47,043 nucleotides of DNA from a virus, in the IMG/VR virus record IMGVR_UViG_3300025276_003377, positions 1-47,043 of that record; one strand, 5' to 3'. Below the pieces are notes generated by a model that was not told the origin of the DNA, did not search any database, and saw only the letters and a list, made by a program, of their open reading frames with translations. Each line of letters opens with the position of its first letter. Within the stretch, counting starts at the first letter, position 1. Below, one piece after another: positions 2,808-25,997 of the stretch. The position numbers were made by a program, and so were the translations under genes.

Positions 2808-3097
2808 TGAATAATGTCGCCACACTTATAAACGAGTTTGGTTTCCCAATTGTCATGGCTGTTGGGATGGGCTACTTTATATACTATGTTTGGAGATTCG
2901 TGATCACAGAACTCAATCCCAAACTATCTACCATGCACATGGCATTGATTAAAGTAATTGATCAAATGAGAATGTTGGATCAAGATATGATAAGGTTACA
3001 ACAAAAAGTTAATGTTGTACTGACATATAGAGACCAACAGGCTGTTATTGATGACGCTGCAGAGAAAGAAGCGTTGCAGGAGAAGAGAAAGAAATGA
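2807..3097 (+). CDS. Single-pass membrane protein, paralogue of the previous gene
   Basis: This 96-residue protein has one membrane helix at about residues 12-32 (FGFPIVMAVGMGYFIYYVW) and a charged, coiled-coil-prone tail ending in KEALQEKRKK. It shares the GxPI...MGxFI helix signature and the DQDMIRL tail motif with its neighbour, so the pair probably arose by duplication and may form hetero-oligomers. ATG overlaps the preceding TAA as TAATG, and the end overlaps csgF as ATGA. Roles could be holin-like, or inner-membrane partners of the CsgG/CsgF pore; I cannot choose between these. Confidence 0.75.
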   Translation: MNNVATLINEFGFPIVMAVGMGYFIYYVWRFVITELNPKLSTMHMALIKVIDQMRMLDQDMIRLQQKVNVVLTYRDQQAVIDDAAEKEALQEKRKK

Positions 3098-3624
3098 TAA
3101 GAAAAATTGAAAGTAAATTACACGTTGTAAGACTAATACTATTAGTAGGAGCTGTTACGCTTGGAATTAATTACGCAGCAGCAGATGAGTTAGTACACAA
3201 ATTTAAATCACCTTCGTTCAGTGGTGTAGGTACCAGCTCACATTATTTGACAATTGAGAACCAAGAGAAGATCAGGAGAGACGCCATCAAGGATGACGTC
3301 GAGGCAGCTTTGTTAGCAGCACAGCGTGCTGAAGAGAATACAACACTAGCTAAATTTATGAGAAATTTAGAGTCAAGGATATTTGCTCAGTTATCAAAAC
3401 AGTTGGTTGAACAATTGTTTAGTGGTGAGGGCAGTACCTTTGGATCGTTTATGATTGACGGCAACATGATTACATACGAACAGACAATCTGTAATCCAGC
3501 TTCCATGGCATGTACGGAAGGCGAGGATGTTATTATAATGACTATCGTAGATCCGAATGGTAGCCAGACTGTAATCATCATACCCATTGGTACAGGTACC
3601 TTTGCAGGGACCGACGGTGGTTAA
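3094..3624 (+). CDS. csgF: CsgF-like curli secretion accessory protein
   Basis: CsgF is secreted to the outer surface, plugs into the CsgG pore and couples it to nucleation of curli subunits. This 176-residue protein has an N-terminal signal segment ending near AAADE. Then comes the hallmark FKSPSFSG at the mature N-terminus, the part that enters the CsgG channel (compare F-R-N-P-N-F-G-G in Escherichia coli). A helical middle follows (FMRNLESRIFAQLSKQL), then a C-terminal beta part with VDPNGSQTVIIIP, matching the known order. It is about 40 residues longer than the enteric protein, mainly between the motif and the helix. It is directly upstream of csgG and overlaps it by 8 bases. Confidence 0.85.
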   Translation: MIRKIESKLHVVRLILLVGAVTLGINYAAADELVHKFKSPSFSGVGTSSHYLTIENQEKIRRDAIKDDVEAALLAAQRAEENTTLAKFMRNLESRIFAQLSKQLVEQLFSGEGSTFGSFMIDGNMITYEQTICNPASMACTEGEDVIIMTIVDPNGSQTVIIIPIGTGTFAGTDGG

Positions 3625-4546
3625 AAAGTATCATACAAGTATCATACTTTTTGCTGCTCTGATATCAGGGTGTGCTTCGTTCCCTTCAATGAACGACACA
3701 TGCAATATAAAACCGTCCGGAGTGGATCCGTATTACACAGTAATGCAATCCATCGGAGAATGTATCGAGCCTCCTCAAGTAGTTGAAATGCCAACACATG
3801 AAGAGCTAAAAGGTTTACCAGCACCAGAGAAGCAACCAATAGTTGCTGTGTATTCGTTTCCAGATAAAACTGGACAACGTAAACAAATGGATGGTGCAGC
3901 TTTATTCAGTACAGCAGTGACCCAAGGGGGTGAGACAATGCTCATCGATGCCCTCAAAACTGCTGGCAATGGAACGTGGTTTAGAGTCGTCGAACGAGTC
4001 GGCATAGATCACCTCACGCGTGAGCGTCAGATTGTGAGGACTACAAGAGAGCAATATAACGAGAAAGATAATACAGGACTCGCCCCCTTGCTGTTCGCTG
4101 GAATGGTTTTGGAAGGCGGAATCATTGGCTTTGATACCAATGTTGAGACTGGCGGACACGGTGCTCGTTATCTTGGAATAGGTGCTTCACAGGCCTACCG
4201 AAGAGATATTGTCGTTGTCCATTTGAGAGCAGTTAGCACATTAACTGGTGAAGTGTTATTAAATGTGCAGACATCAAAAACTATATTGCATGTTGCTGAT
4301 GGGTATGATGTCTTTAAGTTCGTCGATATGGATACAAAGCTAGTAGAAATAGAAGACGGCACAACTGAGAATGAGAGTATAACGCGATCTGTTAGATCAT
4401 GTATTGAGCAGGCTGTGTTAGAAATGATATACCAGGGCCACGATAAAGGGTTCTGGGAAATTAAAGAGGGACATCGTCATCCACATCAAGCTAATGGGAC
4501 GAACGATTTACACCCTACAAAAGAGGAAAGAAATGAAAACGAATAA
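3617..4546 (+). CDS. csgG: CsgG-like outer-membrane curli secretion pore (lipoprotein)
   Basis: CsgG forms a nonameric outer-membrane channel that exports curli subunits. GTG 3617 is preferred because AGGGA lies six bases upstream and it gives a short lipoprotein signal (MVKKY, hydrophobic core, lipobox LISGC with Cys19). An in-frame TTG at 3587 is the alternative. Family blocks are clear: LPAPEKQPIVAVY, DKTGQ, FSTAVTQ, the VEGSIIG-like LEGGIIGFDTNVETGG, GARYLGIGA, TGEVL, TSKTIL and the ending DKGFWEIK. In the channel loop before FSTAV, the Phe is kept but the E. coli Tyr51 and Asn55 positions appear replaced (Asp and Leu). A His/Asn-rich tail of about 25 residues extends beyond the usual C-terminus. 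Confidence 0.95.
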   Translation: MVKKYHTSIILFAALISGCASFPSMNDTCNIKPSGVDPYYTVMQSIGECIEPPQVVEMPTHEELKGLPAPEKQPIVAVYSFPDKTGQRKQMDGAALFSTAVTQGGETMLIDALKTAGNGTWFRVVERVGIDHLTRERQIVRTTREQYNEKDNTGLAPLLFAGMVLEGGIIGFDTNVETGGHGARYLGIGASQAYRRDIVVVHLRAVSTLTGEVLLNVQTSKTILHVADGYDVFKFVDMDTKLVEIEDGTTENESITRSVRSCIEQAVLEMIYQGHDKGFWEIKEGHRHPHQANGTNDLHPTKEERNENE

Positions 4547-5261
4547 ACTTATTGCGTTAGCATTTTTATTATGTCCGACTGTATTGTATGCAGTAGGTAC
4601 CACTGACAATGAAATATTGTTGGATCAATCTGGAGACACCTTAACATTAACCATTGACCAAATAGGTTATGGTAACAAGTTAGGTGGAACGATTGCTAGT
4701 GGTGTTGTTGCATCTGATTGGATCTTTACAGGTTCAAATAATACATTCGATATTGACATGATCGGAAACCTTAACCAAATATTTGGTCCTACACTATTAG
4801 ATAGTTCTGACATCGACTTAAAGATGACAGGTAGCTCTAACATATGGGATTGGAATATCGGTTATGGTGGATCAGCAGATAGTTCTGTAGTGGATGTTGC
4901 TATGACTGGAAGCAGTAATACATTTGATCTTGACTGGGCTTATTCAGCTTCAGCTGAAAGATTAGATTTTGATTTAGATATAACAGGCAGCTCAAACGTC
5001 TGGGATATTGATATCGATGCTGATGACGTCACGTTTAACATCGATGTAATTGGGTCATCTAATAATTTTGACATTGATCAGAAAGACGGAGCCTATAACA
5101 GTCTCACTATGGAGTGGATTGGATCTAATGGTGACATTGATATATTCCAACAATCAGGAACATGCCCAACTGGCACAAGTTCTTGTTACGGTTTAATCAA
5201 TGCTGACTTTGATTCTGAAAATGCTACAGTTAATATTAAACAACAAGATACTGCAGACTAG
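4533..5261 (+). CDS. Asp-rich curlin-repeat protein (secreted fibre subunit candidate)
   Basis: ATG 4533 follows GAGGAAAG and gives a 242-residue protein with a signal peptide ending near LYA (residue 20). The mature part carries at least six degenerate repeats of the form GSxNxxDxD, with the glycines at about residues 67, 100, 126, 152, 174 and 197, that is every 22-33 residues, close to the 22-23 of CsgA/CsgB. Unlike classic curlins, many of the ladder positions are Asp rather than Gln/Asn, so the fibre would be strongly acidic. One QIGYGN unit near residue 43 is canonical. A Cys pair (211, 218) near the end could form a disulfide. It overlaps csgG by 14 bases. Confidence 0.8.
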   Translation: MKTNKLIALAFLLCPTVLYAVGTTDNEILLDQSGDTLTLTIDQIGYGNKLGGTIASGVVASDWIFTGSNNTFDIDMIGNLNQIFGPTLLDSSDIDLKMTGSSNIWDWNIGYGGSADSSVVDVAMTGSSNTFDLDWAYSASAERLDFDLDITGSSNVWDIDIDADDVTFNIDVIGSSNNFDIDQKDGAYNSLTMEWIGSNGDIDIFQQSGTCPTGTSSCYGLINADFDSENATVNIKQQDTAD

Positions 5262-6384
5262 TTTTCTATTATTGCTTATTGGAGCGGCGCTACCACTTGG
5301 AGCAGCTCCTGTAAGCGAGATAGGATCTATTGTAGAGCATAAAGGTTCTGGGGGGATCACTCGCGAAGGCGGTGAGCAGCTTCCCACTAACCTTGATGTT
5401 GGCTTGCAGCCCATGGATTTTATTGAGACTGTAAATGGTAGACTGAAAGCAACTTTTGCTGAAGGGTCTGAGCTCTATATGACGGAGCACACGGAAGCGA
5501 CCATAACTAAATATTATTGGGACAAAGATAAGAACGATGGTGAGATAGGAATCAAGTTTGCTCAAGGCACAGCTAGATTCACCACCGGTAGATTAGGATT
5601 AATACCAAAAGAAAACATCTTAATCGAAACAGCCTCAGCCACTATTGCGGTTAGAGGAACAGATTTTACAACTACGGTTGATGAGTTGGGAAGAACATTA
5701 GTAATACTACTCCCAGAAACCGAATGTACTGTTGATGGAGATTGTAGTCCATCAGGTAGGATAATAGTAACGAACGAAGGAGGTTCAGTTACTTTAGACG
5801 AAGCGTACCAGGCTACTATGGTATCAAGTATGAGCACCCCACCAGTACAACCAGTGACAATTAATAATATTAGTGTGGGTATGATAGATAATATGTTTAT
5901 CGTATCACCACCCCAAGAGATTGAACAGGCAGAAGAAGAGAGCGCAAGAAATAATAGAGATTCTGGTACCAGCATTCTTGACTTCACAGATCTCGATACA
6001 GATTATCTAAAAGAAGATTTCTTGGCAGATGATGATTTAGAGTTCACAGAACTTGACATGGACTTATTAGATGTAGACTTCCTACAAGATGTATTAGTAG
6101 CAATTGAAGAAGTAGACATTTTAAAAAGAGGAACAAGACAAGCTCAAGGTGGACAAGAGTTTACAGGAACCTCATTAGGGTTCGATAAGGAGACACAATA
6201 CAATACTTTTCTTGACAAAGGTCTTGGACAGTTAGTATTTTATAGAGATGTCAATGGTGTGATAGGAATAAGAGTATCATTGGGATCAAATACGAGGATA
6301 GAAAGTGAAAATGAAGGTAAGAAAAATATCATTACAGTTGGTGACGGTACTTCTGTTATTATCACCATTAGGCAAGGCGGATAA
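5221..6384 (+). CDS. Secreted FecR-domain protein
   Basis: ATG 5221 gives a 387-residue protein with an N-terminal signal peptide (hydrophobic core LLLLIGAALPLG, cleavage near GAA). Residues from about 30 to 190 match the periplasmic FecR domain: a G-S-I-V-E-H opening, DFIETVNGRLKATFAEGSEL, and TASATIAVRGTDF, the family's most conserved block. The middle is a strongly acidic linker with repeated LDxD/EDF motifs (about 260-300), possibly Ca-binding. The C-terminal 80 residues resemble another beta domain. FecR domains commonly relay signals across the periplasm; here no sigma factor is present, and the nearby partner is a CHASE2 cyclase. It overlaps both neighbours (41 and 80 bases). Confidence 0.85.
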   Translation: MLQLILNNKILQTSFLLLLIGAALPLGAAPVSEIGSIVEHKGSGGITREGGEQLPTNLDVGLQPMDFIETVNGRLKATFAEGSELYMTEHTEATITKYYWDKDKNDGEIGIKFAQGTARFTTGRLGLIPKENILIETASATIAVRGTDFTTTVDELGRTLVILLPETECTVDGDCSPSGRIIVTNEGGSVTLDEAYQATMVSSMSTPPVQPVTINNISVGMIDNMFIVSPPQEIEQAEEESARNNRDSGTSILDFTDLDTDYLKEDFLADDDLEFTELDMDLLDVDFLQDVLVAIEEVDILKRGTRQAQGGQEFTGTSLGFDKETQYNTFLDKGLGQLVFYRDVNGVIGIRVSLGSNTRIESENEGKKNIITVGDGTSVIITIRQGG

Positions 6385-7042
6385 TTTAATTGAGTTGAAG
6401 CAGGGGTCCTATCAGGGACACACTGGCGACGATTTAAATATTGCTATCGTCCAAAAGGGTGCTGATAATAAAATTCAGTGCTACCGAGACAACTCATGCT
6501 GGATGACTGGAGATGACTTCAATCTACATTTAGAACAAGTCAATACTTCTGGTGCAACTAATGTTTTAGAGCTATGGCATTTAGAAGGTGACAACAATAA
6601 CGTCAGATTTGGACAAGGCGTAGCTCTCAGCGGCTCTTCAGATACAACATTCAATTATGACGGCACCGAAGGTGGCGGTCACTATGCAAGACTAGACATT
6701 CACGGTGATGGAAACAATGTTGCTGGATATCAAACAAATCAAGGATCCACAACAGGGCACTATTATGCTCAGCTAATCTTCAGCGACAACAATAACATAT
6801 GGACTGCACAAAAAGGTAACGGTCGTAAGACAATTAATCTCTATACCACATCAGATGGTAATGGCGTATCGATTACACAACAGGGAAACAATGCTGAGCA
6901 CAATGCCAACATTCAACTGAGAGGTAGCTATGGAACAGACTTGTTATTATTACAGCAAGGCACTACCTCACAAAGTTATACTCTACAACAAAACTGCATA
7001 ACTGTAGGCGGATGCTCAGTTAGCATAACACAAGGTGACTAA
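6305..7042 (+). CDS. Second curlin-repeat protein
   Basis: GTG 6305 has GAGG seven bases upstream; ATG 6311 is the alternative and is too far from it. The 245-residue protein has a signal peptide (KISLQLVTVLLLLSPLGKA) and then a chain of curlin-like units. These have the classic Q-x-G-x-x-N look in QKGADN, QKGNG, QQGNN and QQGTT, and N-rich turns in DGNNV, DNNNI and DGNGV, spaced roughly 20-35 residues. Four cysteines sit in two pairs, near residue 60 and at the very end. Together with the Asp-rich protein it could form a major/nucleator pair like CsgA/CsgB. The first 80 bases overlap the FecR gene. Confidence 0.8.
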   Translation: MKMKVRKISLQLVTVLLLLSPLGKADNLIELKQGSYQGHTGDDLNIAIVQKGADNKIQCYRDNSCWMTGDDFNLHLEQVNTSGATNVLELWHLEGDNNNVRFGQGVALSGSSDTTFNYDGTEGGGHYARLDIHGDGNNVAGYQTNQGSTTGHYYAQLIFSDNNNIWTAQKGNGRKTINLYTTSDGNGVSITQQGNNAEHNANIQLRGSYGTDLLLLQQGTTSQSYTLQQNCITVGGCSVSITQGD

Positions 7043-7260
7043 TGCTTAATAGATTTTTAGAATGGAGCTTTCAGAGGAAGGCAGATAAGATACAAAAGAA
7101 AACACTTCAGATAATTAATCTAGCCCCGAGTGAAGATTGGATAGAGACGATTGTAGAGGTTCATCCTATGAGACAAGTATTCTGGATGACTATAGTCCAG
7201 CTTTGTGTCTTTGGATCCATGCTATTGGCTTTCTGGGTTATCCATGCGCTGGTTAACTAG
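7042..7260 (+). CDS. Small single-pass membrane protein
   Basis: I do not recognise this 72-residue protein. A basic, amphipathic N-terminal half (FQRKADKIQKK) is followed by an acidic patch and one clear membrane helix at about residues 47-69 (FWMTIVQLCVFGSMLLAFWV). It starts on TAATG shared with the second curlin gene and overlaps the cyclase gene by 17 bases, so its translation is probably coupled to both. With this position it may be an inner-membrane partner of the CHASE2 cyclase or of FecR, but that is inference from order alone. Confidence 0.7.
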   Translation: MLNRFLEWSFQRKADKIQKKTLQIINLAPSEDWIETIVEVHPMRQVFWMTIVQLCVFGSMLLAFWVIHALVN

Positions 7261-9112
7261 CATATGGACCGTACTGTTTGTGCTAGTCTTAGGACTATCG
7301 CTTAGAGTAACAGATAATGAAACACTGCAACAGCTCAGGTACATGGGCTTCGATGCAAAGATAACATCACTTCCACAAACTAAATCTAATGACGTTGTAA
7401 TACTCAATATTGGAGAAGGGACCTTGGCCAAGGAAGGCCAGTATCCTTTTCCTAGAGGCCACTATGCAAGAATCATAAGTGATCTTATAGAAGCCAACTC
7501 AGGTGTAGCTGGTTTTACTATAATGTTTCCAGAACCAGATCGGTTCAATCAAGATAACGTATTTGCATCATGGGCTGGTGAACCAAGTGCTGTTGTTCTT
7601 GCTCAGAAAAGTTCAAACAAAGGTAGGTCACAGGAAGCTAGACGCGAAAATATTATTACTAGTGGCAATGGTGATCCATTAAACTGGGTTGATGAGTATG
7701 CAGGTATTGTTTCTAACATTCCTGAACTAGATCAGGCAGCAAGAGGTGTCGGTATGGTAAATGTCACACCATCATCAGACGGGTTGGTAAGAAAGATACC
7801 GCTCGTGGTTCAATCAGGCGGTAAAGCATACTCGAGTTTCCCTATCGAAGTGATAAGATCCATAACAAGTACCAAGGGGTACACTATAAAGGTAGATAAG
7901 GACCTTGGAATTGATTCACTATACATTCATCCAAGAGAGTTTAAGACCGAGCGCGATGGTTCAATATGGGTAATGTGGGATAAGACGTTTGATGAGTATG
8001 AGTGGGGAGTGGATCCACTCCCAAACTTAAATGGTAAGACTGTTATAATTGGTCTGACGGCTGAGGGTCTGGCAAATCCAGTTCCAACTGCCCATGGTCC
8101 TGTATATCCTCACCATCTTCAGGCCGCAGTCGTACAAACGCTTTTAAATCAGAGTTATAGTACCGAGTTGAATATGGTGACCCGCCCATGGTGGACGGAT
8201 GCTGCGGAGTTGGGAATAGCTCTCCTTGGTGGGGTCCTTCTAATAGCTGCTGTTTACTACTTTCCTCTGCTGCTTGCCACTTGCGTCGTTGTAGCATCTG
8301 CTGCCTTCTCCTACTTTGCTGCCGAATACGCATGGACTTCTTCAATGGTGCTCCTTGATTGGACTTTTGTAACAATATTATATATTATACTTGCTCTCCA
8401 CACATATGGCAACAACTTTTACATCCAATACAAGCTGAGAGAGCAGATCAAAGGTCAATTTGGAACGTATCTGTCACCTGACATGGTCGATATGCTGGCA
8501 AAGGACCCAACACTACTAAAATTGGGCGGTGAGAGACGTGAAATGTCCTTTTTATTCATGGACATTGTTGGATTCACGCCCATATCAGAATATTTTAAGA
8601 ATCAAGACGACCCCGAAGGGCTTGTTGAGCTTGTAAATGAGTTTTTGAACGAAATGACGTTGATTATTCTTGCAAATGGTGGTACAATAGACAAATATAT
8701 GGGCGATTGCATCATGGCGTTCTGGAATGCACCTTTAGATTGCGAAAATCACGCTGAAATGGCCGTACTATCGGCGATACAGATAGAAGTTAAGACTGCG
8801 GAGCTTAAAGAATTGTACAAAGAGAGGGGATTACCGGATATTAACGTGGGCACTGGAGTCAATACCGGCACATGCATCGTAGGGAACATGGGATCAGAGA
8901 CTAGATTCGATTATTCTGTTATAGGTGATGCGGTAAACTTGGCAGCTAGGCTAGAAGCAAAAGCAGCTCGACACGAACTTATAGATTACAAAACAGTCAT
9001 CTCTAGTATGACTGCTGACCAACTTCCTGATACTTTTAAGTTGAAAGAGATAGGCGACATAAACGTCAAAGGAAAGGTTGATGTGATAAAGATATTCTCA
9101 CCACGTCTTTAA
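7244..9112 (+). CDS. CHASE2-domain class III adenylate cyclase (membrane sensor)
   Basis: The enzyme should make cAMP from ATP in the cytoplasm under control of a periplasmic sensor domain. The 622-residue protein has one N-terminal helix (about 4-22), then a CHASE2 domain (about 25-300) with DVVILNIGEGTL, PFPRGHYA and MFPEPDR. Next come about three closely packed membrane helices (320-395), and a cyclase domain from about 425. Metal-binding Asp440 and Asp488, adenine-binding Lys484 (DKYMGD) and transition-state Asn565 and Arg569 (NLAAR) are all present, so it should be active; Lys484 favours ATP over GTP. ATG 7244 lies inside the previous ORF. FecR plus CHASE2 cyclase pairs occur in bacteria, but I know of none described in a phage. 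Confidence 0.9.
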   Translation: MRWLTSIWTVLFVLVLGLSLRVTDNETLQQLRYMGFDAKITSLPQTKSNDVVILNIGEGTLAKEGQYPFPRGHYARIISDLIEANSGVAGFTIMFPEPDRFNQDNVFASWAGEPSAVVLAQKSSNKGRSQEARRENIITSGNGDPLNWVDEYAGIVSNIPELDQAARGVGMVNVTPSSDGLVRKIPLVVQSGGKAYSSFPIEVIRSITSTKGYTIKVDKDLGIDSLYIHPREFKTERDGSIWVMWDKTFDEYEWGVDPLPNLNGKTVIIGLTAEGLANPVPTAHGPVYPHHLQAAVVQTLLNQSYSTELNMVTRPWWTDAAELGIALLGGVLLIAAVYYFPLLLATCVVVASAAFSYFAAEYAWTSSMVLLDWTFVTILYIILALHTYGNNFYIQYKLREQIKGQFGTYLSPDMVDMLAKDPTLLKLGGERREMSFLFMDIVGFTPISEYFKNQDDPEGLVELVNEFLNEMTLIILANGGTIDKYMGDCIMAFWNAPLDCENHAEMAVLSAIQIEVKTAELKELYKERGLPDINVGTGVNTGTCIVGNMGSETRFDYSVIGDAVNLAARLEAKAARHELIDYKTVISSMTADQLPDTFKLKEIGDINVKGKVDVIKIFSPRL

Positions 9113-9778: not shown

Positions 9779-10267
9779 ATGTTATTACTTGCCGTTAATG
9801 GAACTAAGGGTGGTAAGCTACCGAATGGACTTACTACTAAACTAGAACAAGCAGCATATTTTTATGCTAAGAAATTAAAGATGTCTGAGGAAGACTCTTT
9901 TATTGAAATTAAGGTTCCTCGTAAGAGGGGCTTTATTGATGGGTGTATAGGAGGACTATGCAGTGCGGCTGATGAAGAGCACGAAGCAGGTTACGAATAT
10001 ATGCACATTGTAATTGATCTTGCTAATGTAACAATTAGTGAGATGTTGAGAAACCTGGCTCATGAAATGGTCCATGCTAAGCAATACCTAAAAGGTGAGC
10101 TTTGTGTAGATGTACAATCATGGAAAGGGGTTCGATTCAAATCCAAGTTGGGCGTTGATTATGATGTCAATGCACCATGGGAAAAAGAAGCGTACAGGAG
10201 AGAGACTCTTCTATACAAAAAGCTATTAGATCATTATGGAGAAAATTATGGCAGAAGCAGAAAATAA
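9779..10267 (+). CDS. SprT-like zinc metallopeptidase
   Basis: The HExxH zinc motif is H95-E-M-V-H99, inside NLAHEMVHAKQY, and the third ligand is probably the Glu in PWEKEAY near residue 139. The family includes SprT/Spartan proteases that act on DNA-bound or cross-linked proteins, and short stand-alone domains are frequent in phages. At 162 residues it is about one domain long. It follows the HAD gene by nine bases with AAGGACCGAAG as ribosome binding site, and its end overlaps the next gene by 20 bases. Confidence 0.8.
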   Translation: MLLLAVNGTKGGKLPNGLTTKLEQAAYFYAKKLKMSEEDSFIEIKVPRKRGFIDGCIGGLCSAADEEHEAGYEYMHIVIDLANVTISEMLRNLAHEMVHAKQYLKGELCVDVQSWKGVRFKSKLGVDYDVNAPWEKEAYRRETLLYKKLLDHYGENYGRSRK

Positions 10268-10481
10268 ATTCGCTCATGTAGACAAAGCAGTCTTTGCATT
10301 AGCGTCAGCGTTGGATTCAACGTTAAGAGTTCAATCTCAAATCTTTGCATTTGAAGACTTAGATGAAGACTATCTAAACAATTGGTTACAGAAAGAGAAA
10401 GATCCAGTACTCGGTACTGTGATTGCTCAGCTGTTAGGTTTGAGGGAGATACAACCTGAGGGCGAAGCTGATGCCGGTTAA
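10248..10481 (+). CDS. Hypothetical small protein
   Basis: I do not recognise this 77-residue protein. ATG 10248 (MAEAENKF) is preferred over ATG 10236 because GGAGAAAA lies just before it. The sequence is acidic and mostly helical (ALASALDSTL, NNWLQKEK), without membrane helices or cysteines. It sits between a SprT protease and a peroxiredoxin and overlaps both, so it is certainly transcribed with them. Confidence 0.6.
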   Translation: MAEAENKFAHVDKAVFALASALDSTLRVQSQIFAFEDLDEDYLNNWLQKEKDPVLGTVIAQLLGLREIQPEGEADAG

Positions 10482-10992
10482 TGATGGAGAAAGAATGCCT
10501 GACTTCAGGTATTTTGATAGAGTAGCGGGAGCCTTCACTCAGAAGATCCTTCGCAACGAGGCTAAGGAAGGAAGGATAGTTCTATTTGGATTACCTGGTG
10601 CCTTTACGCCAACTTGTTCTACCGAACAGCTTCCAAAGTTTGAAGAACTGTATGATGACTTAACAACATATGTCGATGATGTATTTTGTACTTCTATCAA
10701 CGACCCATTTGTAATGAATGCTTGGTTTGATAGTTTAGATATTAAGAAAGTCAAATCTCTCCCTGATGGAAATGGGGATCTTGCTCAATCACTTAAAATG
10801 TTTGTTGCTAAACGCAATCTAAACTTTGGCCATCGTTCATGGAGATATGCAATGATCGTCAATACAAAAGATAAGTATATTGAAAAAGTCTTCTGTGAAG
10901 AAGGGTATGGGGATAACTGTGAAAGTGATCCATATGAAATATCAAAGCCTGAGAATGTTTTAGCATGGCTAAAATCGAAAGCAGGGCAATGA
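10471..10992 (+). CDS. Peroxiredoxin, Prx5 (AhpE/hybrid Prx5) type
   Basis: The enzyme reduces hydrogen peroxide or organic peroxides with a peroxidatic cysteine. The active-site block is GLPGAFTPTCS with Cys49 and Thr46, followed by the family's SINDPFVMNAW and a conserved Arg in SWRYAMIV. It has 173 residues, the normal length for Prx5. In the same operon there is a glutaredoxin (13414-13677), which could recycle the oxidised cysteine, since many Prx5 enzymes use glutaredoxin. A phage peroxiredoxin would protect the infected cell from oxidative damage. Start ATG 10471 overlaps the previous stop by 11 bases. Confidence 0.9.
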   Translation: MPVNDGERMPDFRYFDRVAGAFTQKILRNEAKEGRIVLFGLPGAFTPTCSTEQLPKFEELYDDLTTYVDDVFCTSINDPFVMNAWFDSLDIKKVKSLPDGNGDLAQSLKMFVAKRNLNFGHRSWRYAMIVNTKDKYIEKVFCEEGYGDNCESDPYEISKPENVLAWLKSKAGQ

Positions 10993-11432
10993 GAAACCTG
11001 ACCTGGAGCCAGGTCGATGAGCTGACTACGCAAGTAGCGGCACACCTTAGTTATGATGCTCCAGACTGTATAGTCGGACTAGCTCGCGGTGGGCTAATTC
11101 CGGCTGTACGCCTTTCTCACGTGTTGGGAGTGCCTATGGAGTGCATTAACATGAGCTTACGTGATTCAAAGGTGTCAGGGAGCTTAGAATTGTTTAAAGC
11201 TCAGTTAGATAACTTAGATAAATATAAGAACATTGCTATAGTAGACGATATATGTGACAGCGGTAAGACCTATCATGTACTTGATATACACTTACAAGAT
11301 CGAGGTCACCGAAACATCCAATGGTGTGCTCTTCTATCTAAAACTACTTCAATGTTTACGCCAACGATAGTTGGGGAAGAAATAAAAGAAATAAACAACT
11401 CAGAATGGGTTGTCTTTCCTTGGGAGGAATAA
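10989..11432 (+). CDS. Phosphoribosyltransferase (xanthine-guanine type fold)
   Basis: The PRPP-binding loop, IAIVDDICDSGKT (about residues 82-94), is a clear type I phosphoribosyltransferase motif. The N-terminal CIVGLARGGLIPA is the second substrate-facing loop seen in Gpt and HPRT-like enzymes. With 147 residues it is close to the Gpt length (152). Its role would be purine salvage, or transfer of ribose-5-phosphate to another base. ATG 10989 overlaps the peroxiredoxin stop as ATGA and has GCAGGGC just upstream; the longer in-frame ATG at 10965 lies in the previous gene and lacks a ribosome binding site. Confidence 0.85.
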   Translation: MRNLTWSQVDELTTQVAAHLSYDAPDCIVGLARGGLIPAVRLSHVLGVPMECINMSLRDSKVSGSLELFKAQLDNLDKYKNIAIVDDICDSGKTYHVLDIHLQDRGHRNIQWCALLSKTTSMFTPTIVGEEIKEINNSEWVVFPWEE

Positions 11433-11594
11433 ATGGATTATATTAAAAAACTTATGAAAGAAAGAACGTCTTGGGACGGTAGTATTATTATTGCAGTCTG
11501 TGGATCAGTAATTCTGCTTGGTGGTTTAGCTAAGGTAGTGGCATGGGCCGGATTAGCGTATGGTATTTACACACTGCTAAAGAGTGAGTCATAA
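11433..11594 (+). CDS. Small two-helix membrane protein
   Basis: This 53-residue ORF follows the previous stop directly, with GGGAGGAATAA as ribosome binding site. A positively charged N-terminus (DYIKKLMKERTSWDG) is followed by two hydrophobic stretches, at about 17-32 and 35-49, rich in Gly and Ala. Similar small ORFs recur in marine T4-like phages as I recall, but no function is known to me. With the next small membrane gene (12419-12628), it flanks the Coq4-like gene, so it could help anchor a membrane-associated activity. Confidence 0.65.
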   Translation: MDYIKKLMKERTSWDGSIIIAVCGSVILLGGLAKVVAWAGLAYGIYTLLKSES

Positions 11595-11609
11595 TCTAGG
11601 AGATTAACA

Positions 11610-12422
11610 ATGTGGAACCCAATAAAGATATACAAGTATTCTAAAAACATTCTAGCTAGAGGCCGTACCAATCATTACGATCAGTCTGACGACACTACGA
11701 ATGATATTGTTTCGCTTTATGGGGAGATGCTGTTTCCGTCTGTATTCTTGTCAGGGCATATTCTAAGAAAGACAGCTGAAGGACGTAATATCCTTTTCGG
11801 TCTCGAGGATAAGTCGGAAGAGCATCAACTTAGTGTATACATTCCAAAAATTACCGATGGTGAATATTTAGATTCACTAGCACCTAATACAGTCGGTGCT
11901 CATTACAAACATTTGATCAATCAATGGTCATTTGAAGAACTGTATAACTCAAGATTTACAAGCATGCCAAAAGATACGTTCGTGCAGAAACGTAGAGCCA
12001 ATGTTGCTCGTCATATCTTTTTAAGTCATGACTTCTGGCACGTATTGTTTAGATATGATACATCACCGCTAGGTGAGGCTTGCATACAAGCTGTAACATC
12101 ACAATATCTGAAATTTACTGGGCCATGGTATATGTCATACCTAATAGCATTCAAAGAAAGACAAATAACAGGTTCGTGGAAAGCATTTAATGTTATTCGT
12201 GAAGCTCATCGAATAGGTAAACAGGCTCACAGAGCTGTATACGATGCTAATTTTGATACACTATTAGAAATGGACATAGAAGAAGTACGCGCACAATTTA
12301 ATGTCGGTGTACCAACAGCGTTCTACGATTATGCTAAAGAGTTTCCAAAAGACTTTAGGTATGATTGCATTCATCCAGAATATAATGATACACAGGTTGA
12401 ATATACAGAGGCAACAATATGA
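11610..12422 (+). CDS. Coq4-like protein (ubiquinone biosynthesis family)
   Basis: Coq4 works in ubiquinone synthesis, on the benzoquinone ring, bound to a metal and to the membrane. The family signature H-D-x2-H-x11-E is complete: His140, Asp141, His144 and Glu156, in a block reading HDFWHVL then LGE. Total length (270) is in the Coq4 range, and the protein is likely monotopic, like Coq4. The region before the motif is the helical part, and KERQ with an N-x-x-R-x-AHR block follows. I have not seen a phage Coq4 described. Whether it acts on host quinone synthesis or on another substrate cannot be decided. Start ATG 11610 has CTAGGAG upstream. Confidence 0.75.
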   Translation: MWNPIKIYKYSKNILARGRTNHYDQSDDTTNDIVSLYGEMLFPSVFLSGHILRKTAEGRNILFGLEDKSEEHQLSVYIPKITDGEYLDSLAPNTVGAHYKHLINQWSFEELYNSRFTSMPKDTFVQKRRANVARHIFLSHDFWHVLFRYDTSPLGEACIQAVTSQYLKFTGPWYMSYLIAFKERQITGSWKAFNVIREAHRIGKQAHRAVYDANFDTLLEMDIEEVRAQFNVGVPTAFYDYAKEFPKDFRYDCIHPEYNDTQVEYTEATI

Positions 12423-12628
12423 GGTGGAAATTTCCAATTCTCACAGCGATCAAAGACTTCTATAAGAAGCATGGTCTAATTAAAACTATTCCTTTCGTCC
12501 TATTCATAGCAATCGGCGCTAAATTTGTTATAGGTAATTTAGGAATACTATTACTAAACGCACTGGGTATGGAACTATTGTTTCCAGGCCCAACTACAAG
12601 GGCAATACTAGCTCTATTTGGAGTTTAG
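12419..12628 (+). CDS. Small membrane protein after the Coq4-like gene
   Basis: This unrecognised 69-residue protein overlaps the Coq4-like gene by four bases (ATGA) and ends directly before iscU. It has a basic N-terminus (KFPILTAIKDFYKKHGL) and two hydrophobic segments (about 24-40 and 42-62), so it should be an inner-membrane protein. Tight coupling to the Coq4-like gene suggests a role at the same membrane site, but that is only context. Confidence 0.6.
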   Translation: MRWKFPILTAIKDFYKKHGLIKTIPFVLFIAIGAKFVIGNLGILLLNALGMELLFPGPTTRAILALFGV

Positions 12629-13096
12629 ATGGCATACTCAGACGAAGTAGTAAAAAGATTTGAAGCGGTTCTTGCTAACCCTAAGAAGCATTCAGTTGGT
12701 TCATTAGATAGAAAGAATCCTAAGGTTGCAACAGGTCTTGCAGGAGCTCCTGCTTGTGGTGATGTAATGCAATTGCAATTGCTGCTCGATGATAATGAAA
12801 AGATTGTCGATGTCAAATTTAAAACATATGGATGTGGATCCGCTATTGCATCTTCATCATTGTTTGTTGATATGATGATGGGACTAACTATCGCTGAAGC
12901 AAAACTAATCAAAGACAAAGACATTGCAGACGTCTTACAACTTCCACCGATCAAATTACATTGTAGTGTATTAGCAGAAGATGCTATCAAACAAGCTATG
13001 GTGGACTACGAGACAAAAAATACAAAGGACTATGCCCATCCTATTTTAGACACAGCAAAGTCTATGGTGGGTCATAATAATCCACCCAATGATTGA
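12629..13096 (+). CDS. iscU: IscU-type iron-sulfur cluster scaffold
   Basis: IscU is the scaffold on which 2Fe-2S clusters are assembled before transfer to target proteins. All ligands line up with Escherichia coli IscU at a constant offset of six: Cys43 (GAPACGD), Cys69 (YGCGSA), His111 and Cys112 (LHCS). The HscA-recognition motif is present as LPPIK (105-109), so host chaperones could still use it. Length is 155 against 128, with most of the extra residues at the C-terminus (MVGHNNPPND). No IscS cysteine desulfurase is seen in the window; sulfur would have to come from the host. The gene starts one base after the previous stop and overlaps iscA by eight. Confidence 0.93.
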   Translation: MAYSDEVVKRFEAVLANPKKHSVGSLDRKNPKVATGLAGAPACGDVMQLQLLLDDNEKIVDVKFKTYGCGSAIASSSLFVDMMMGLTIAEAKLIKDKDIADVLQLPPIKLHCSVLAEDAIKQAMVDYETKNTKDYAHPILDTAKSMVGHNNPPND

Positions 13097-13403
13097 TCTT
13101 ACAGACAGAGCTATAACACACATCATGAGTAACCTTCGTGGCGAAGGTGATTACGTTCGTGTAGGATTGAAGCCAGCTGGGTGCACAGGATTCGAATATA
13201 TTATAGATTGGGATAATGATGTTACAGAAGATGACATGGTTATTGACTTTGGAAAGTTTGGTGTTATTATAGACATACACTCTCAACCAATGATAGACGG
13301 ATCAACAATAGACGTTATCAGTGACGGTATAAATACCAATGTTAAGGTACTTAACCCAAAAGAAATTAACTCGTGCGGTTGCGGAGCAAGCGTACAATTT
13401 TAG
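13089..13403 (+). CDS. iscA: A-type iron-sulfur carrier (IscA/ErpA/HesB family)
   Basis: A-type carriers take a cluster from a scaffold and pass it to apo-proteins. The three ligand cysteines are at Cys32 (AGCTGFEY), Cys96 and Cys98 (SCGCG), the same spacing as in IscA. The length of 104 residues is normal. The immediate neighbours are IscU upstream and a glutaredoxin downstream, so together they form a complete scaffold, carrier and reductant set. IscA-like genes are reported in marine phages, while the IscU neighbour is less usual. The start overlaps iscU by eight bases. Confidence 0.93.
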   Translation: MIDLTDRAITHIMSNLRGEGDYVRVGLKPAGCTGFEYIIDWDNDVTEDDMVIDFGKFGVIIDIHSQPMIDGSTIDVISDGINTNVKVLNPKEINSCGCGASVQF

Positions 13404-13413
13404 GAACTATATT

Positions 13414-13677
13414 ATGGCCACGTGGACAATTTATTCAAAGAACAACTGCCCTTATTGCGACAAAGCAAAATTTGAACTTAGAGCAGAAGACGTAGAAGTC
13501 AAAAACATTAGCGACGATGCAGCATACTTTACTGAACTGATGGAAAGAAATCCAGCAGCTAGAACAATGCCCCAGATATTCAAAGGCGATCAACTAGTCG
13601 GTGGGTATGATCAATTAAAGACCTTATTAGAAGTCACTAGAGGTAGTGATGATGGCCTTATAGATAGATCACTATGA
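13414..13677 (+). CDS. Glutaredoxin (dithiol, CPYC)
   Basis: The active site is C12-P-Y-C15, followed by the cis-proline block TMPQIF and GGYDQL, which bind glutathione. The length (87 residues) is that of classical dithiol glutaredoxins. ATG 13414 is preferred because TAGGAAC lies upstream; the longer frame reaches back into iscA. It overlaps the glycosyltransferase start by four bases. In this operon it could reduce the peroxiredoxin, support ribonucleotide reductase, or assist in cluster assembly. Confidence 0.92.
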   Translation: MATWTIYSKNNCPYCDKAKFELRAEDVEVKNISDDAAYFTELMERNPAARTMPQIFKGDQLVGGYDQLKTLLEVTRGSDDGLIDRSL

Positions 13678-18235: not shown

Positions 18236-18859
18236 CTATTTAGTCTTCGCCGCCTTGGCTTCTCTTGCCAATTTGAGTCTTTCAACGAGAGCTGCTTTCT
18301 GCTCATCAGTCATAACTCTTTTCTTTCTTTTCTTCTTACCAGGAGTTTCTTTTATAGATATTTCTGGTGTTACAAATCTTGATTTCAACCCATGGTCATT
18401 TCTCTCATCATCGTCCATCTGGGTTGTCCACACTTCTCGACAATCAGGATACCAAACACCCAGCTCACGTTTAGGTCGTCCATCAGAATAGTACGCCATT
18501 GCAATACAACGCCTCTGAACTTTTGATTCCATTCGTCCACCAGCAAACATGCTCGTGTAGGTTCCTTGCTTGAGGTATGTCTCGAGCTGACTACAATATC
18601 CGTTCCATTGCTCATACTTTGCACGAGCGCCTTTCACATCATGACGGATATCATTCTTTGCCGCGGTTTTCAACGACATGGCTTCTTTGAGCCATTCGCG
18701 GACTGTCTTAAAACTGTATGGGTGATCGTCTGGCAGTGCCACAACATATTGACTATACTGTGTGTACTTAGGAGGATTCTTCTCATACCTCTTTTCTCGG
18801 GCCAAAGCTAATCTCTCAGCTCGTAATACCTTTTCTTCTGCACTCAATTGTTTCTTCAT
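18236..18859 (-). CDS. Conserved hypothetical protein with Lys/Ala-rich ends
   Basis: This 207-residue protein has a basic, coiled-coil-like start (SAEEKVLRAERLALAREKR) and end (ALVERLKLAREAK). Between them is a compact domain of about 120 residues holding KRELGVWYPDCREVW. No catalytic motif is clear. The basic ends suggest nucleic-acid binding, but that is only composition. It overlaps its upstream neighbour by four bases, and its stop lies two bases from the next start. Confidence 0.6.
   Translation of the reverse strand: MKKQLSAEEKVLRAERLALAREKRYEKNPPKYTQYSQYVVALPDDHPYSFKTVREWLKEAMSLKTAAKNDIRHDVKGARAKYEQWNGYCSQLETYLKQGTYTSMFAGGRMESKVQRRCIAMAYYSDGRPKRELGVWYPDCREVWTTQMDDDERNDHGLKSRFVTPEISIKETPGKKKRKKRVMTDEQKAALVERLKLAREAKAAKTK
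18237..18244 (-). promoter_or_regulatory. Late-promoter-like octamer (ACTAAATA)
   Basis: Read on the minus strand, ACTAAATA, then five bases, then ATG 18231. It matches TATAAATA at six of eight positions. The octamer overlaps the end of the upstream gene, so a chance match is possible. Confidence 0.4.
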
Positions 18860-19608
18860 AATTTATCCACCAGTTTCATTTGTCTAATTGTCGTTCCACC
18901 GTACTTCATTGCTTCGTCTTCTCCATGATCAAGCGTCCGTCCTTGTTCAGGGCAAAACACTTGGGTGACGGGAGCACGTTGTACGCCTACCATCATGTCG
19001 GCCTTGAGCATGTGCTTGACGGATTTACCCTCAGCAACATGGTTAGTGCATCTGTGATCTGGCCACATTACACTTGTGTTCCTTTCACCAACATATGGGC
19101 ACACCATACACCATCTTTCCAAAGAAGTCCACAGTTCTGCCATTGGACCCGCACAGACACGGGTGTTGCCATCGAGGTACATTAATTTTATAAAATTGGC
19201 TAATCTTGGAGACATGGTATAAAATTCCATAGCAATACCAGCGTTCCATAATTCGTGCGATCTTGCGCCATCAATTATCTGTTGTAGCTTTTCTGGATGT
19301 AATAGGTACGCATCATGTTCAAGTATAAGATGACGCTCTCCAGTTTTTGCAATGTGCATCCACTCTCTGAAATGACTGGTCATGCATGCTTGTTCAGTCA
19401 GCGTCTTCTTACGCTTCTGGCCAGCCCATTTATTAGAGCGTATATATTGCTCCCACCTGAGGGTGAAATCTTGGTCTTTTATAGTGGCTGGTGTAACGCA
19501 TTGAACCATTTCAATATCAATTCCGGATCCATCAAACGATTTCTTCGATAGTTCAGCGTACTTCATCGACAGTTCATTATTAAGGTCACATATCATGCGG
19601 GCTTTCAT
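18856..19608 (-). CDS. GT25-like glycosyltransferase (tentative)
   Basis: The 250-residue protein resembles the LPS glycosyltransferase 25 fold: the block TEQACMTSHFREW corresponds to the family's G-E-x-x-C-x-x-S-H, and LILEHDAYL to the acidic E-D-D-A motif. The second Asp is replaced by His (EHDA), which may change metal binding. Ten Cys residues, several in the last third, are unusual. The start is at the predicted +1 of a TATAAATA promoter. A structural or DNA-modifying role is possible, and I am only moderately sure of the family. Confidence 0.6.
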   Translation of the reverse strand: MKARMICDLNNELSMKYAELSKKSFDGSGIDIEMVQCVTPATIKDQDFTLRWEQYIRSNKWAGQKRKKTLTEQACMTSHFREWMHIAKTGERHLILEHDAYLLHPEKLQQIIDGARSHELWNAGIAMEFYTMSPRLANFIKLMYLDGNTRVCAGPMAELWTSLERWCMVCPYVGERNTSVMWPDHRCTNHVAEGKSVKHMLKADMMVGVQRAPVTQVFCPEQGRTLDHGEDEAMKYGGTTIRQMKLVDKL

Positions 19609-22930: not shown

Positions 22931-23509
22931 ATGAAGCAGACATATGAGATAGCAACAATCCTTACATCGAAAGAGAGAAAACATCTCCTTGCGTTGAAGG
23001 AATCGTGCGTCACATTAGATGCTCATCAAGACTATAATCTATTCGACGTAGCCAAAACACTGATCCATCCAAAGCATCTAGGCATGTATACTAATAAGTA
23101 TTCGCCGACAGCTAAGCAAGGACTCGACAGCCTACACGCTGCCGCCAAAGAACGAAACGTTGGAGCTCCCGTTGCTCAATACTTTTTAGATTATACTAAA
23201 GACGCCTTTACAAAATTCCACACTGACGATGATGCTAGAGTCGGGCTGACAATGGTCACTCTACTCAATGAAGACAATCTTGAGGGTGGAGAAACAATAC
23301 TACAACAAGTTTACGAATCTAAGGCTCGGCCAGAGCATAAATATGCAAAACGAGAAGGTGCGGACGGACCATACGGACAAAGAATTATCCCAGAGGTAGT
23401 TCCAATGGAAGTAGGCGAGACTATCATATATGATAGAAACCTAATGCATGGTGTTGGGTTAGTACGTGAAGGTATCAGAACGGTATTAGTTACCTGGTAT
23501 CACACATAA
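22931..23509 (+). CDS. 2OG-Fe(II) oxygenase, prolyl 4-hydroxylase-like
   Basis: The family hydroxylates a protein or nucleic acid using 2-oxoglutarate and iron. Iron ligands are His97, Asp99 (HTD) and His173 (LMHGVG), and Arg183 binds 2-oxoglutarate. The C-terminal VTWYHT is characteristic. It is 192 residues long. The protein begins MKQTYEIA. It shares the same ending pattern as the truncated oxygenase at the window start but is only distantly related. The target is not known; it is expressed from a late promoter, so virion proteins are one option. Confidence 0.88.
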   Translation: MKQTYEIATILTSKERKHLLALKESCVTLDAHQDYNLFDVAKTLIHPKHLGMYTNKYSPTAKQGLDSLHAAAKERNVGAPVAQYFLDYTKDAFTKFHTDDDARVGLTMVTLLNEDNLEGGETILQQVYESKARPEHKYAKREGADGPYGQRIIPEVVPMEVGETIIYDRNLMHGVGLVREGIRTVLVTWYHT

Positions 23510-23679: not shown

Positions 23680-24597
23680 ATGCCTAAAAATCCAAAGACC
23701 GACTTCAGACTAGACGACGCATATCAAGATTACGTTGCTGTGCCTATCCATGACTCACCTTTGGTGATCAACTGGAAAGGTAAGATTGGTTATGGCGACA
23801 TCATATCACCAATATGTTATGCTTTCAACCTAGCAGAGAAGAACAAGATAGATGTAGTTCTCAACTTCCATTGGAAGCAAGAAGGTCCAGTTAAGTTTAA
23901 GCCAGAGGACAATGAAACAATTCAAGACTGGGTAGAGTTTATTGCAAACTATACAGAGCCAGTTGAAATGTTTGATGTTAAGATCAACCACGTATACAAT
24001 TCCGATCTAAGATACAATCATGACAACTATGATGCTGATGATATATCATTGCACAATATGAGGTTCTCTATATTTGGTTTGAATGACTTCAACAATTATC
24101 ATGATACACATAAGTGGATCTCAATGGTAACCACTATCAAACATAAACAACAAATAAAAGATTACGATCCAAACAAGTCATGGAAGGATCCAATTGGCGA
24201 GTCACCTAATGGGTATGCTTGGCCAAAGATATCAACCATGCTTAACAAGAGAGGATGGAACACCAAGCACGTTCATTACGAACATGCATGCTCATCAGCA
24301 GTTAAGAAAATGCTATCAACCAGAGTTGTGTTTGGGTATCACGGAGCACATATGTGGCTTGCTAAATGGCTCGGAATGCCAATGATTATATTCAGCAAGG
24401 GCGGCAAGAGACGGAACAACATAACAGAGAAGGCCTTTCCGTGGGCAGTCACATTTGAATACTGGACAGACTTTAACATAGAATCTATTGAAGAATATGT
24501 AGCGCTGTCAATAAAAAGGAGAGATGAAACAATTGAAAGAAGAAAATATTACCTCACCGGTCCAAATCTTTATAGGTTACGAGGAAAGCGAACGTAA
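23680..24597 (+). CDS. Glycosyltransferase-like protein (GT-B type, tentative)
   Basis: The 305-residue protein starts MPKNPKTDF; ATG 23680 has a weak GGA. It has an early Gly-rich loop (GKIGYGDIISPICYAF), typical of nucleotide-sugar enzymes of the ADP-heptose or GT9 kind. A late block, RVVFGYHGAHMWLAKWLGMP, resembles the second Rossmann domain with the region that chooses the donor. No E-x7-E is seen. It begins a row of three glycosyltransferase-like genes, so I infer a joint role in building or attaching a glycan. The first gene overlaps the second by 74 bases. Confidence 0.55.
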   Translation: MPKNPKTDFRLDDAYQDYVAVPIHDSPLVINWKGKIGYGDIISPICYAFNLAEKNKIDVVLNFHWKQEGPVKFKPEDNETIQDWVEFIANYTEPVEMFDVKINHVYNSDLRYNHDNYDADDISLHNMRFSIFGLNDFNNYHDTHKWISMVTTIKHKQQIKDYDPNKSWKDPIGESPNGYAWPKISTMLNKRGWNTKHVHYEHACSSAVKKMLSTRVVFGYHGAHMWLAKWLGMPMIIFSKGGKRRNNITEKAFPWAVTFEYWTDFNIESIEEYVALSIKRRDETIERRKYYLTGPNLYRLRGKRT

Positions 24598-25228
24598 GGC
24601 GTATGATGTATGTGTCTCCTCAATTGAGCAGAGATCTAACATAAAAATCAACAAGCTACACACATCGCTTCTACCTAACTGGTATAGAGAGAAAGAGCCG
24701 CATCAGTCGACAGACTTTACATACACTAGATTCCTGTGTCCCGAACTTATGGACTTCAAAGGTATAAGCATATTTTGTGATTGTGACTTTCTGTGGTTAG
24801 CCAATCCAGCCTTTCTGATTGATTATATTAAACCTGATCAAGCGGTAGCTGTCTGTCAGCATCCAGCTTATATACCAAACACAGCCAATAAGATGGATGG
24901 TAAAATACAGCATCAGATGCCAAGAAAGAACTGGGCGTCTATGATGGTGTTCAACAATGCACATCCTTCTAATCAAATACTAACAAACAAATATGTGAAC
25001 GAGCATATGCCTGGTAGAGATCTACATCAGTTTGAGTGGTTAAAGGATAGCGAGATTGGATCCATTCCTTTAGATTGGAACTGTCTTGATGACTACTATC
25101 TAATGGAGAACCCTAAGGCAATTCACTTTACAGATGGTGGCCCTTGGTTCAAAGACTACCAAGACACAATGTATAGCGACCTGTGGATCGACCAAGCTCT
25201 ATCGAGATATGAAGACAATGAAAGCTAA
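24524..25228 (+). CDS. Glycosyltransferase, GT8-like
   Basis: The 234-residue protein has the GT-A core. IFIGYEESERKAYDVC is a start typical of GT8-type enzymes, FCDCDFLW contains the D-x-D metal motif, and HFTDGGPW near the end carries the His of the C-terminal donor site. It would transfer a hexose from a UDP- or similar nucleotide sugar. It lies between two other glycosyltransferase-like genes and begins within the previous one, with AAGGAG two bases before ATG 24524. Confidence 0.75.
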   Translation: MKQLKEENITSPVQIFIGYEESERKAYDVCVSSIEQRSNIKINKLHTSLLPNWYREKEPHQSTDFTYTRFLCPELMDFKGISIFCDCDFLWLANPAFLIDYIKPDQAVAVCQHPAYIPNTANKMDGKIQHQMPRKNWASMMVFNNAHPSNQILTNKYVNEHMPGRDLHQFEWLKDSEIGSIPLDWNCLDDYYLMENPKAIHFTDGGPWFKDYQDTMYSDLWIDQALSRYEDNES

Positions 25229-25997
25229 TGACATAACAGTTGTAATGACATGGTATGGTCAACAAGACCATCTGCTAAATCAAATGTTGTTCTATTCTAA
25301 GATGGCTGAGAAGTATCACTACAAGCCAAAGCTAATTATAATGAACGATGCTAATGGTCCTGAGAGGAAATACTTCCACGAATGCATTAATGCATATAAA
25401 GGTGTTATAGATGTTCAGGGCGTTGATGTTAAGACTGACATTGGGTTCAATTCACATACGTGTAGGAATCTAGGAGTCAAGCTAGCAAAGACAGATTGGG
25501 TATGGTTGATAGACGTAGATTGTTTTGAACAGGAAGACATCTATCATTATGCAAGATTTGAAAAGGAACTAAACGAAGATTGGTTTTATGTTCCAAAAGC
25601 AGACATGGACTACCCAGAAGATATGACAGACTATGAGCTTCTGGATCCAAAAGGAATAATCAAATACGTAACACATCCAAACAGTTGGATCATGACTAAA
25701 GAATGCTTTTGGTCAACTGGTGGATATGATATAGAGTTTTGTGGAGTGCGTCAAGGTGATGCAGAATTTTTTATCTCCATAGGACGAGAGGGTCATAAGA
25801 AGTGGGACTACGAGCTTCTACATGACGATAAAATGATACGAGTAGGCTTTCCAAAGCGTGATCCATTCTATATTAGACAGGACAGTTGGAAGCAAGACGA
25901 TGCACGAGAGCTTATAGATTTCGTGAGAACAAGAAACCAGAATCCTTATAGAAAATATAGAAAAAGGATTCACGATCTAACATGGGAGTATGTGTGA
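25209..25997 (+). CDS. Glycosyltransferase, GT2-like (GT-A fold)
   Basis: ATG 25209 (MKTMKANDITVV) is preferred; another ATG lies nine bases later. The 262-residue protein begins with ITVVMTWYGQQDHLL, continues with CRNLGVKLAKTDWVWLIDVDCF, whose D-V-D is the metal-binding triad of GT2 enzymes, and has a WSTGGYDIEFCGVRQGDAEF acceptor region. This fits a galactosyl- or glucosyltransferase. It overlaps the GT8-like gene by 20 bases and gp33 by four, so it is transcribed with both. Confidence 0.75.
   Translation: MKTMKANDITVVMTWYGQQDHLLNQMLFYSKMAEKYHYKPKLIIMNDANGPERKYFHECINAYKGVIDVQGVDVKTDIGFNSHTCRNLGVKLAKTDWVWLIDVDCFEQEDIYHYARFEKELNEDWFYVPKADMDYPEDMTDYELLDPKGIIKYVTHPNSWIMTKECFWSTGGYDIEFCGVRQGDAEFFISIGREGHKKWDYELLHDDKMIRVGFPKRDPFYIRQDSWKQDDARELIDFVRTRNQNPYRKYRKRIHDLTWEYV

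Follow-up and report, generated by a model that had tools for sequence, protein, structure and literature searches.

A phage branch of the Coq4 superfamily with a nearly constant small membrane partner

Does a phage gene that resembles Coq4 truly belong to this superfamily, and, if so, on what might its product act in the infected cell? The gene lies in a window (the whole stretch of 47,043 nt that was analysed, i.e., positions 1 to 47,043 of virus record IMGVR_UViG_3300025276_003377) that is the DNA of a T4-like phage. A bacterial contig or contamination is ruled out because the window contains genes for a T4-like baseplate, gp32, gp59, PhoH, and an exonuclease. The nearest relatives of the baseplate wedge protein come from T4-like phages of Caulobacter, Sinorhizobium, Stenotrophomonas, and Pelagibacter (best identity 41%), and the host is likely an alphaproteobacterium.

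Several other genes of the window deserve mention. A 162-aa protein (9779–10267), which matches only PHROGs with no known function, contains an HExxH motif (HEMVH) and is possibly a small metallopeptidase. Matches to glycosyltransferases (family 25; family 8, below the cut-off; and family 2-like) and one weak match to a 2OG-Fe(II) oxygenase were obtained for the regions 18856–19608 (minus strand), 22931–23509 (plus strand), and 24524–25997 (plus strand).

The Coq4-like gene and its phage family

The Coq4-like gene (11610–12422, plus strand) starts with ATG, has a putative ribosome-binding site AGGAG 7 nt upstream (11598–11602, plus strand), and encodes a protein of 270 residues. The complete motif H-D-x2-H-x11-E ascribed to this protein in the preliminary description was confirmed at residues 140–156 (12027–12077, plus strand; HDFWHVLFRYDTSPLGE). 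No hydrophobic segment or membrane helix was seen in the protein by sliding-window hydropathy. Two small ORFs on the same strand flank the gene. The upstream one (11433–11594) encodes a predicted membrane protein of 53 aa and ends 15 nt before the Coq4-like gene. The downstream one (12419–12628), identified by position, hydropathy, and alignment, encodes a predicted single-helix membrane protein of 69 aa, referred to here as TM1; it overlaps the end of the Coq4-like gene, stop codon included, by 4 nt and is followed directly by a NifU-like gene starting at 12629. The span initially assigned to the Coq4-like protein, ending at 12628, takes in TM1. Judging from strand and spacing, the Coq4-like gene and the two small ORFs probably share an operon. 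Both flanking ORFs reported earlier as membrane proteins do exist and have hydrophobic segments, but only the downstream one is a constant partner; the 53-aa protein (cluster 8) was rejected as a part of the module, since it occurs only in one genome context (context A, see below), in 15 of 38 loci.

Residues 76–233 of the protein match the Pfam Coq4 profile PF05019 (E = 2.3e-9, 37.3 bits with the cut-off at 22.9). The profile is matched individually by 21 of 22 family representatives (E of 0.01 or better), and its cut-off is exceeded by 19 of 21 whole records; the two exceptions, the records of L299 and L005, do not reach it and were counted against the quinone function discussed at the end. 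In a phmmer search of solved structures, two cyanobacterial Coq4-family proteins ranked first, albeit weakly (E = 0.052 and 0.2), and the profile of the phage family matched 3msq at E = 5e-4. The AlphaFold2 model built from 22 sequences has a mean pLDDT of 83 and a pTM of 0.83. With this model as the query, Foldseek returned 6e12 and 3msq (E = 5e-6 and 4e-5, respectively) as the sole entries at E of 0.001 or better, and VIA-align aligned the model with 6e12 at Z 19.4 (rmsd 2.8 Å over 206 residues) and with 3msq at Z 17.1 (rmsd 3.4 Å over 204 residues), the next row dropping to Z 3.4. The two structures are those of cyanobacterial Alr8543 (6E12) and Npun02000094 (3MSQ), to which the phage protein is similar in fold and motif, being only about 17% identical in sequence.

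The superfamily motif was defined as HDxxH-(x)10-13-E, and the exact form HDxxH-x11-E is present in 57 of 58 loci, the exception (L335) being cut off by the contig end. Given this conservation and the matches to both the profile and the fold, a motif arising by chance is ruled out. Thus, the Coq4-like identity proposed from the window is borne out by the sequence profile and by the structure comparison suggested as its check, and by profile, motif, and modelled fold the protein is a member of the Coq4 superfamily. With the eukaryotic COQ4/Coq4 proteins (PF05019) it has in common the profile match, the HDxxH-x11-E motif, a similar size, and the character of a soluble helical protein. What sets the phage clade apart from them is a distinct N-terminus (MWNPIKI), a C-terminal tail (R-x-D-x-[IF]-H-P), a histidine at position 135, and the nearly constant membrane partner.

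Relatives were collected stepwise: a search with the single protein yielded two, a search with an alignment yielded 37 contigs, and a second pass yielded 57, including 20 new ones. The resulting family comprises 58 loci (57 relatives on viral contigs and the window) with 45 distinct proteins, which are between about 30% and about 70% identical to the window protein. No PHROG was found for any of 22 family members, tblastn with four members gave no match among 50,697 INPHARED phage records, and the window model had no match at E of 0.001 or better among the BFVD predicted viral structures. A phage Coq4 was likewise absent from the literature searched, supplements and most subscription papers lying outside that search. 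The statement that no Coq4 had been described in phages hence held across PHROG, INPHARED, BFVD, and this part of the literature. None of eight proteins was matched by NCBIfam, a result that is uninformative, as two known plasmid Coq4 proteins included as controls were equally unmatched. We conclude that the family is a new phage branch of the known Coq4 superfamily and that its nearly constant partner is new as well.

The membrane partner, genome contexts, and exchange between phages

TM1 is encoded directly 3' of the Coq4-like gene in 54 of the 58 loci (37/38 in the first set and 17/20 among the further loci). Proteins of the TM1 family are ~60–80 aa long and have W-x-[FWL]-P near the start and, according to hydropathy, one main hydrophobic helix. 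All 16 aligned copies share W3, P6, K35, N40, and P58; K35 and N40 fall inside the hydrophobic stretch, and an invariant lysine and asparagine in the helix are unusual for a plain anchor. The four loci lacking TM1 (L017, L291, L292, L306) all have a protein of cluster 3, described below, upstream. Searches with two TM1 queries produced 22 rows, mostly from contigs already in the family set; in 21 of them Coq4 is directly upstream, and the contig of L355 starts inside TM1, so that no TM1 without Coq4 was found among these rows. Among 160 loci picked by other genes, five had both Coq4 and TM1 (four of them being contigs already counted) and 155 had neither.

Clustering of neighbours in the first 38 loci demonstrated that the pair occurs in at least four genome contexts. 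Context A (17 loci including the window) is that of T4-like phages and features genes for peroxiredoxin, phosphoribosyltransferase, NifU-like and HesB-like proteins, glutaredoxin, and glycosyltransferase, not all of them present in every locus. In the window, the block around the pair (10471–13677) contains, according to Pfam, the peroxiredoxin, phosphoribosyltransferase, NifU-like, HesB-like, and glutaredoxin genes; among viral contigs, NifU-like genes occur very widely, with at least 600 matches. The pair adjoins ribonucleotide reductase in context B (8 loci) and terminase or tail genes in context D (4 loci). In context C (8 loci), tail-fibre genes lie on one side of the pair and a head "stabilization" gene on the other; among the best relatives of the latter are those of Octadecabacter, Roseobacter, and Pelagibacter phages. 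One locus, L017, stands alone outside these contexts.

Outside context A, the gene directly upstream of Coq4 encodes a protein of ~230 aa assigned to cluster 3 (e.g., L003:3055–3744). It precedes Coq4 in 34 of the 58 loci (20/38 in the first set and 14/20 among the further ones); in the first set, these are all loci of contexts B and D, L017, and all loci of context C but L025, whose contig begins just before Coq4. The model of the cluster 3 protein (pLDDT 92.6) is bicupin-like (best Z 9.0). We do not call it an enzyme, as it has no Foldseek match at E of 0.001 or better and no conserved His/Glu metal set in the family alignment. It had no PHROG match and only one Pfam row, at chance level.

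Comparison of closely related loci is indicative of exchange. Between the window and L037, PRX, PRT, TM8, NIFU, GRX, GT, and two other neighbours are 72–85% identical and ISCA is 58% identical, but Coq4 is only 45% and TM1 27% identical. Similarly, the neighbours in L018 are mostly 79–98% identical to those in L021 and L023 (72% for PRX and 68–69% for NIFU), but the identity is 47% for Coq4 and 33–35% for TM1. As in these two comparisons Coq4 and TM1 diverge at the same site while most neighbours stay alike, the pair appears to be a mobile two-gene cassette, swapped in place for divergent versions in otherwise similar phages. At the same time, the identities of NIFU and ISCA are also patchy, which means that recombination affects the whole block; in both comparisons the pair is merely its most divergent part. 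When context A is mapped on an IQ-TREE tree, the well-supported branches alone require three or more changes. The data do not support a strict joint inheritance of Coq4 and TM1: their distances are moderately correlated (0.56 across 21 loci), and between L020 and L037 TM1 is 81% but Coq4 only 37% identical, so that TM1 also changes its Coq4 partners.

An exchanged multigene cassette made of other genes is known from pelagiphages, i.e., the curli (T8SS) partner cassette with FecR and adenylate cyclase, described as exchanged between phage families (available text of PMC9599517); the words "ubiquinone," "quinone," and "coq" are absent from the main text of that paper. The window has its own set of CsgF (3094), CsgG (3587), FecR (5200), and CHASE2-adenylate/guanylate cyclase (7205–9112) genes in the region 3094–9112, and it matches that cassette as described in the available text of PMC9599517.

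Cellular relatives

To compare the two groups, 22 phage proteins were aligned with 42 cellular ones, all of them bacterial (from cyanobacteria, alphaproteobacteria, and, in one case, a betaproteobacterium); the cellular set is what remained of 91 hits after near-duplicates (>80% similar) and pieces shorter than 200 residues had been dropped. H140, D141, H144, and E156 are identical in all 22 phage and all 42 cellular proteins, and G155 and R227 are nearly so across the entire set. Two positions differ between the groups: position 135 is arginine in 41 of the 42 cellular proteins and histidine in all 22 phage proteins, where the alignment of the arginine could be shifted by one residue, since phage R134 is invariant; position 148 is glycine in 38 of the 42 cellular proteins and arginine in 91% of the phage proteins. 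In the FastTree tree, the phage proteins form one clade (support 1.000) on a stem of 1.63 changes per site, the deep branches where it joins cellular Coq4 having weak support.

A bacterial source of the phage clade is not supported. Of 337 alphaproteobacterial genomes sampled, 32 have a PF05019 protein, which implies that most of them perform the C1 step otherwise. The A2 phage profile matched 24 of the 337 genomes, with a best score of 55 bits, in genomes that also match ordinary Coq4, and the A2 scan of genome contigs, limited by its pattern, gave 27 pattern matches and no relatives. Coq4-family genes were also observed on plasmids of sphingomonads and a cyanobacterium, adjoining an AtuA-family terpene-utilisation gene and an FAD oxidoreductase (L042), acyl-CoA dehydrogenases and nitronate monooxygenase (L043), or P450 genes (L044). 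They probably have non-ubiquinone roles, and because of such neighbourhoods not every Coq4 can be read as a ubiquinone-synthesis protein.

Possible roles in the infected cell

Alphaproteobacteria make ubiquinone, and beyond the homology, fold, metal motif, conserved pairing, and exchange between phages established above, we propose that the Coq4-like protein is a membrane metalloenzyme, anchored by its partner and directed at the prenylated quinone pool of the host, a plausible function to which we assign somewhat less than an even chance. As with cellular COQ4, the phage protein would be a peripheral membrane metalloprotein whose HDxxH-x11-E motif binds one divalent metal or two and whose helical bundle accommodates a long-chain isoprenoid, TM1 keeping the protein at the inner membrane. 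During infection, it may work on prenylated quinone precursors of the host. The simplest chemistry would be the one-step COQ4 reaction, in which the C1 carboxyl is replaced by a hydroxyl, and the resulting supply of ubiquinone might keep respiration going until lysis, to the benefit of the phage. Precedents come from COQ4, a C1 oxidative decarboxylase converting the carboxyl of the ubiquinone precursor to a hydroxyl (available text of PMC11495197), and from the Nostoc homologue 6E12, with oleic acid and Mg ions at the HDxxH motif (available text of PMC9774615). Viral genes tied to quinone synthesis have been reported, namely phage-borne ubiG (PMC9301287) and COQ2 (UbiA; PMC12724203), both encoding enzymes unrelated to Coq4. 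In their passages on viral quinone genes, neither of these two papers names Coq4, and in the available text of PMC10653327 and PMC8115048 quinones are mentioned without it.

The quinone function is favoured by the Pfam assignment, the structure matches restricted to Coq4, the retained metal ligands, the near-constant membrane partner, the redox and Fe-S neighbours in the window, the kinship with phages of alphaproteobacteria, and the other viral quinone genes. Disfavouring it are the Arg-to-His and Gly-to-Arg changes at positions 135 and 148 near the active site, the location of the pair in contexts B–D next to tail, head-stabilisation, terminase, or ribonucleotide reductase genes rather than redox genes, the scarcity of Coq4 among the 337 alphaproteobacterial genomes sampled, and the in-place swapping, unusual for a plain metabolic helper. 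COQ7 (PF03232) was found in none of 21 records, which may be fragments. The role in respiration or quinone balance raised in the preliminary description is possible, and its alternative, the same fold used on another molecule, is nearly as likely.

The same residue changes beside the metal site, together with the long, fully supported stem of the phage clade, would fit reuse of the fold on another isoprenoid or lipid (e.g., undecaprenyl phosphate, a carotenoid, a hopanoid, or a phospholipid chain), with the substrate changed but the lipid cavity and metal site retained. The plasmid genes, whose neighbours are AtuA, acyl-CoA dehydrogenases, or cytochrome P450 and not genes for ubiquinone synthesis, and the fatty acid in the solved homologue (available text of PMC9774615) point in this direction as well, but no particular substrate is indicated, the fold and ligands do not discriminate, and the arginine at 135 may be misaligned by one residue; we regard this explanation as nearly as likely as the quinone function. 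The in-place replacement (window and L037; L018, L021, and L023) and the exchange among contexts could alternatively reflect a device for membrane takeover or an arms race, i.e., superinfection exclusion, counter-defence, or lysis timing, with the Coq4-like protein and TM1 acting on or in the inner membrane and making no metabolic product. Late-gene positions in contexts B–D and the invariant lysine and asparagine within the TM1 helix agree with such a device, but all four metal ligands are strictly retained, which speaks for chemistry, the known families of lysis or exclusion proteins gave no match, and a PADLOC search with five proteins gave only a weak match for L026 (E = 0.0072) and none for the window proteins, its models covering defence and not counter-defence. 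We consider this improbable.

Even less probable is a scaffold or decoy without catalytic activity, which would bind and redirect ubiquinone-synthesis proteins or quinone intermediates of the host: COQ4 has long been viewed as organising the CoQ complex (available text of PMC11495197 and PMC9774615), but the metal ligands are fully kept in all 57 loci covering the motif. Taken more broadly, the phage-only branch and its one-helix TM1 with a buried invariant lysine may constitute a two-gene membrane-lipid device, traded among distant phages and exchanged in place one allele for another, serving a new lipid substrate or a membrane arms race rather than ubiquinone synthesis, a possibility that we take seriously, short of favouring it.

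Human COQ4 was reported as a C1 oxidative decarboxylase only recently (available text of PMC11495197), and bacterial Coq4 is still functionally obscure. A compact phage Coq4 with its own membrane partner is a simple two-protein system in which the role of the fold can be probed. If it makes quinone, phages would rebuild a respiratory lipid of the host during infection; if it does not, the Coq4 fold would have a second use, and matches to PF05019 should not be read as ubiquinone synthesis by default.
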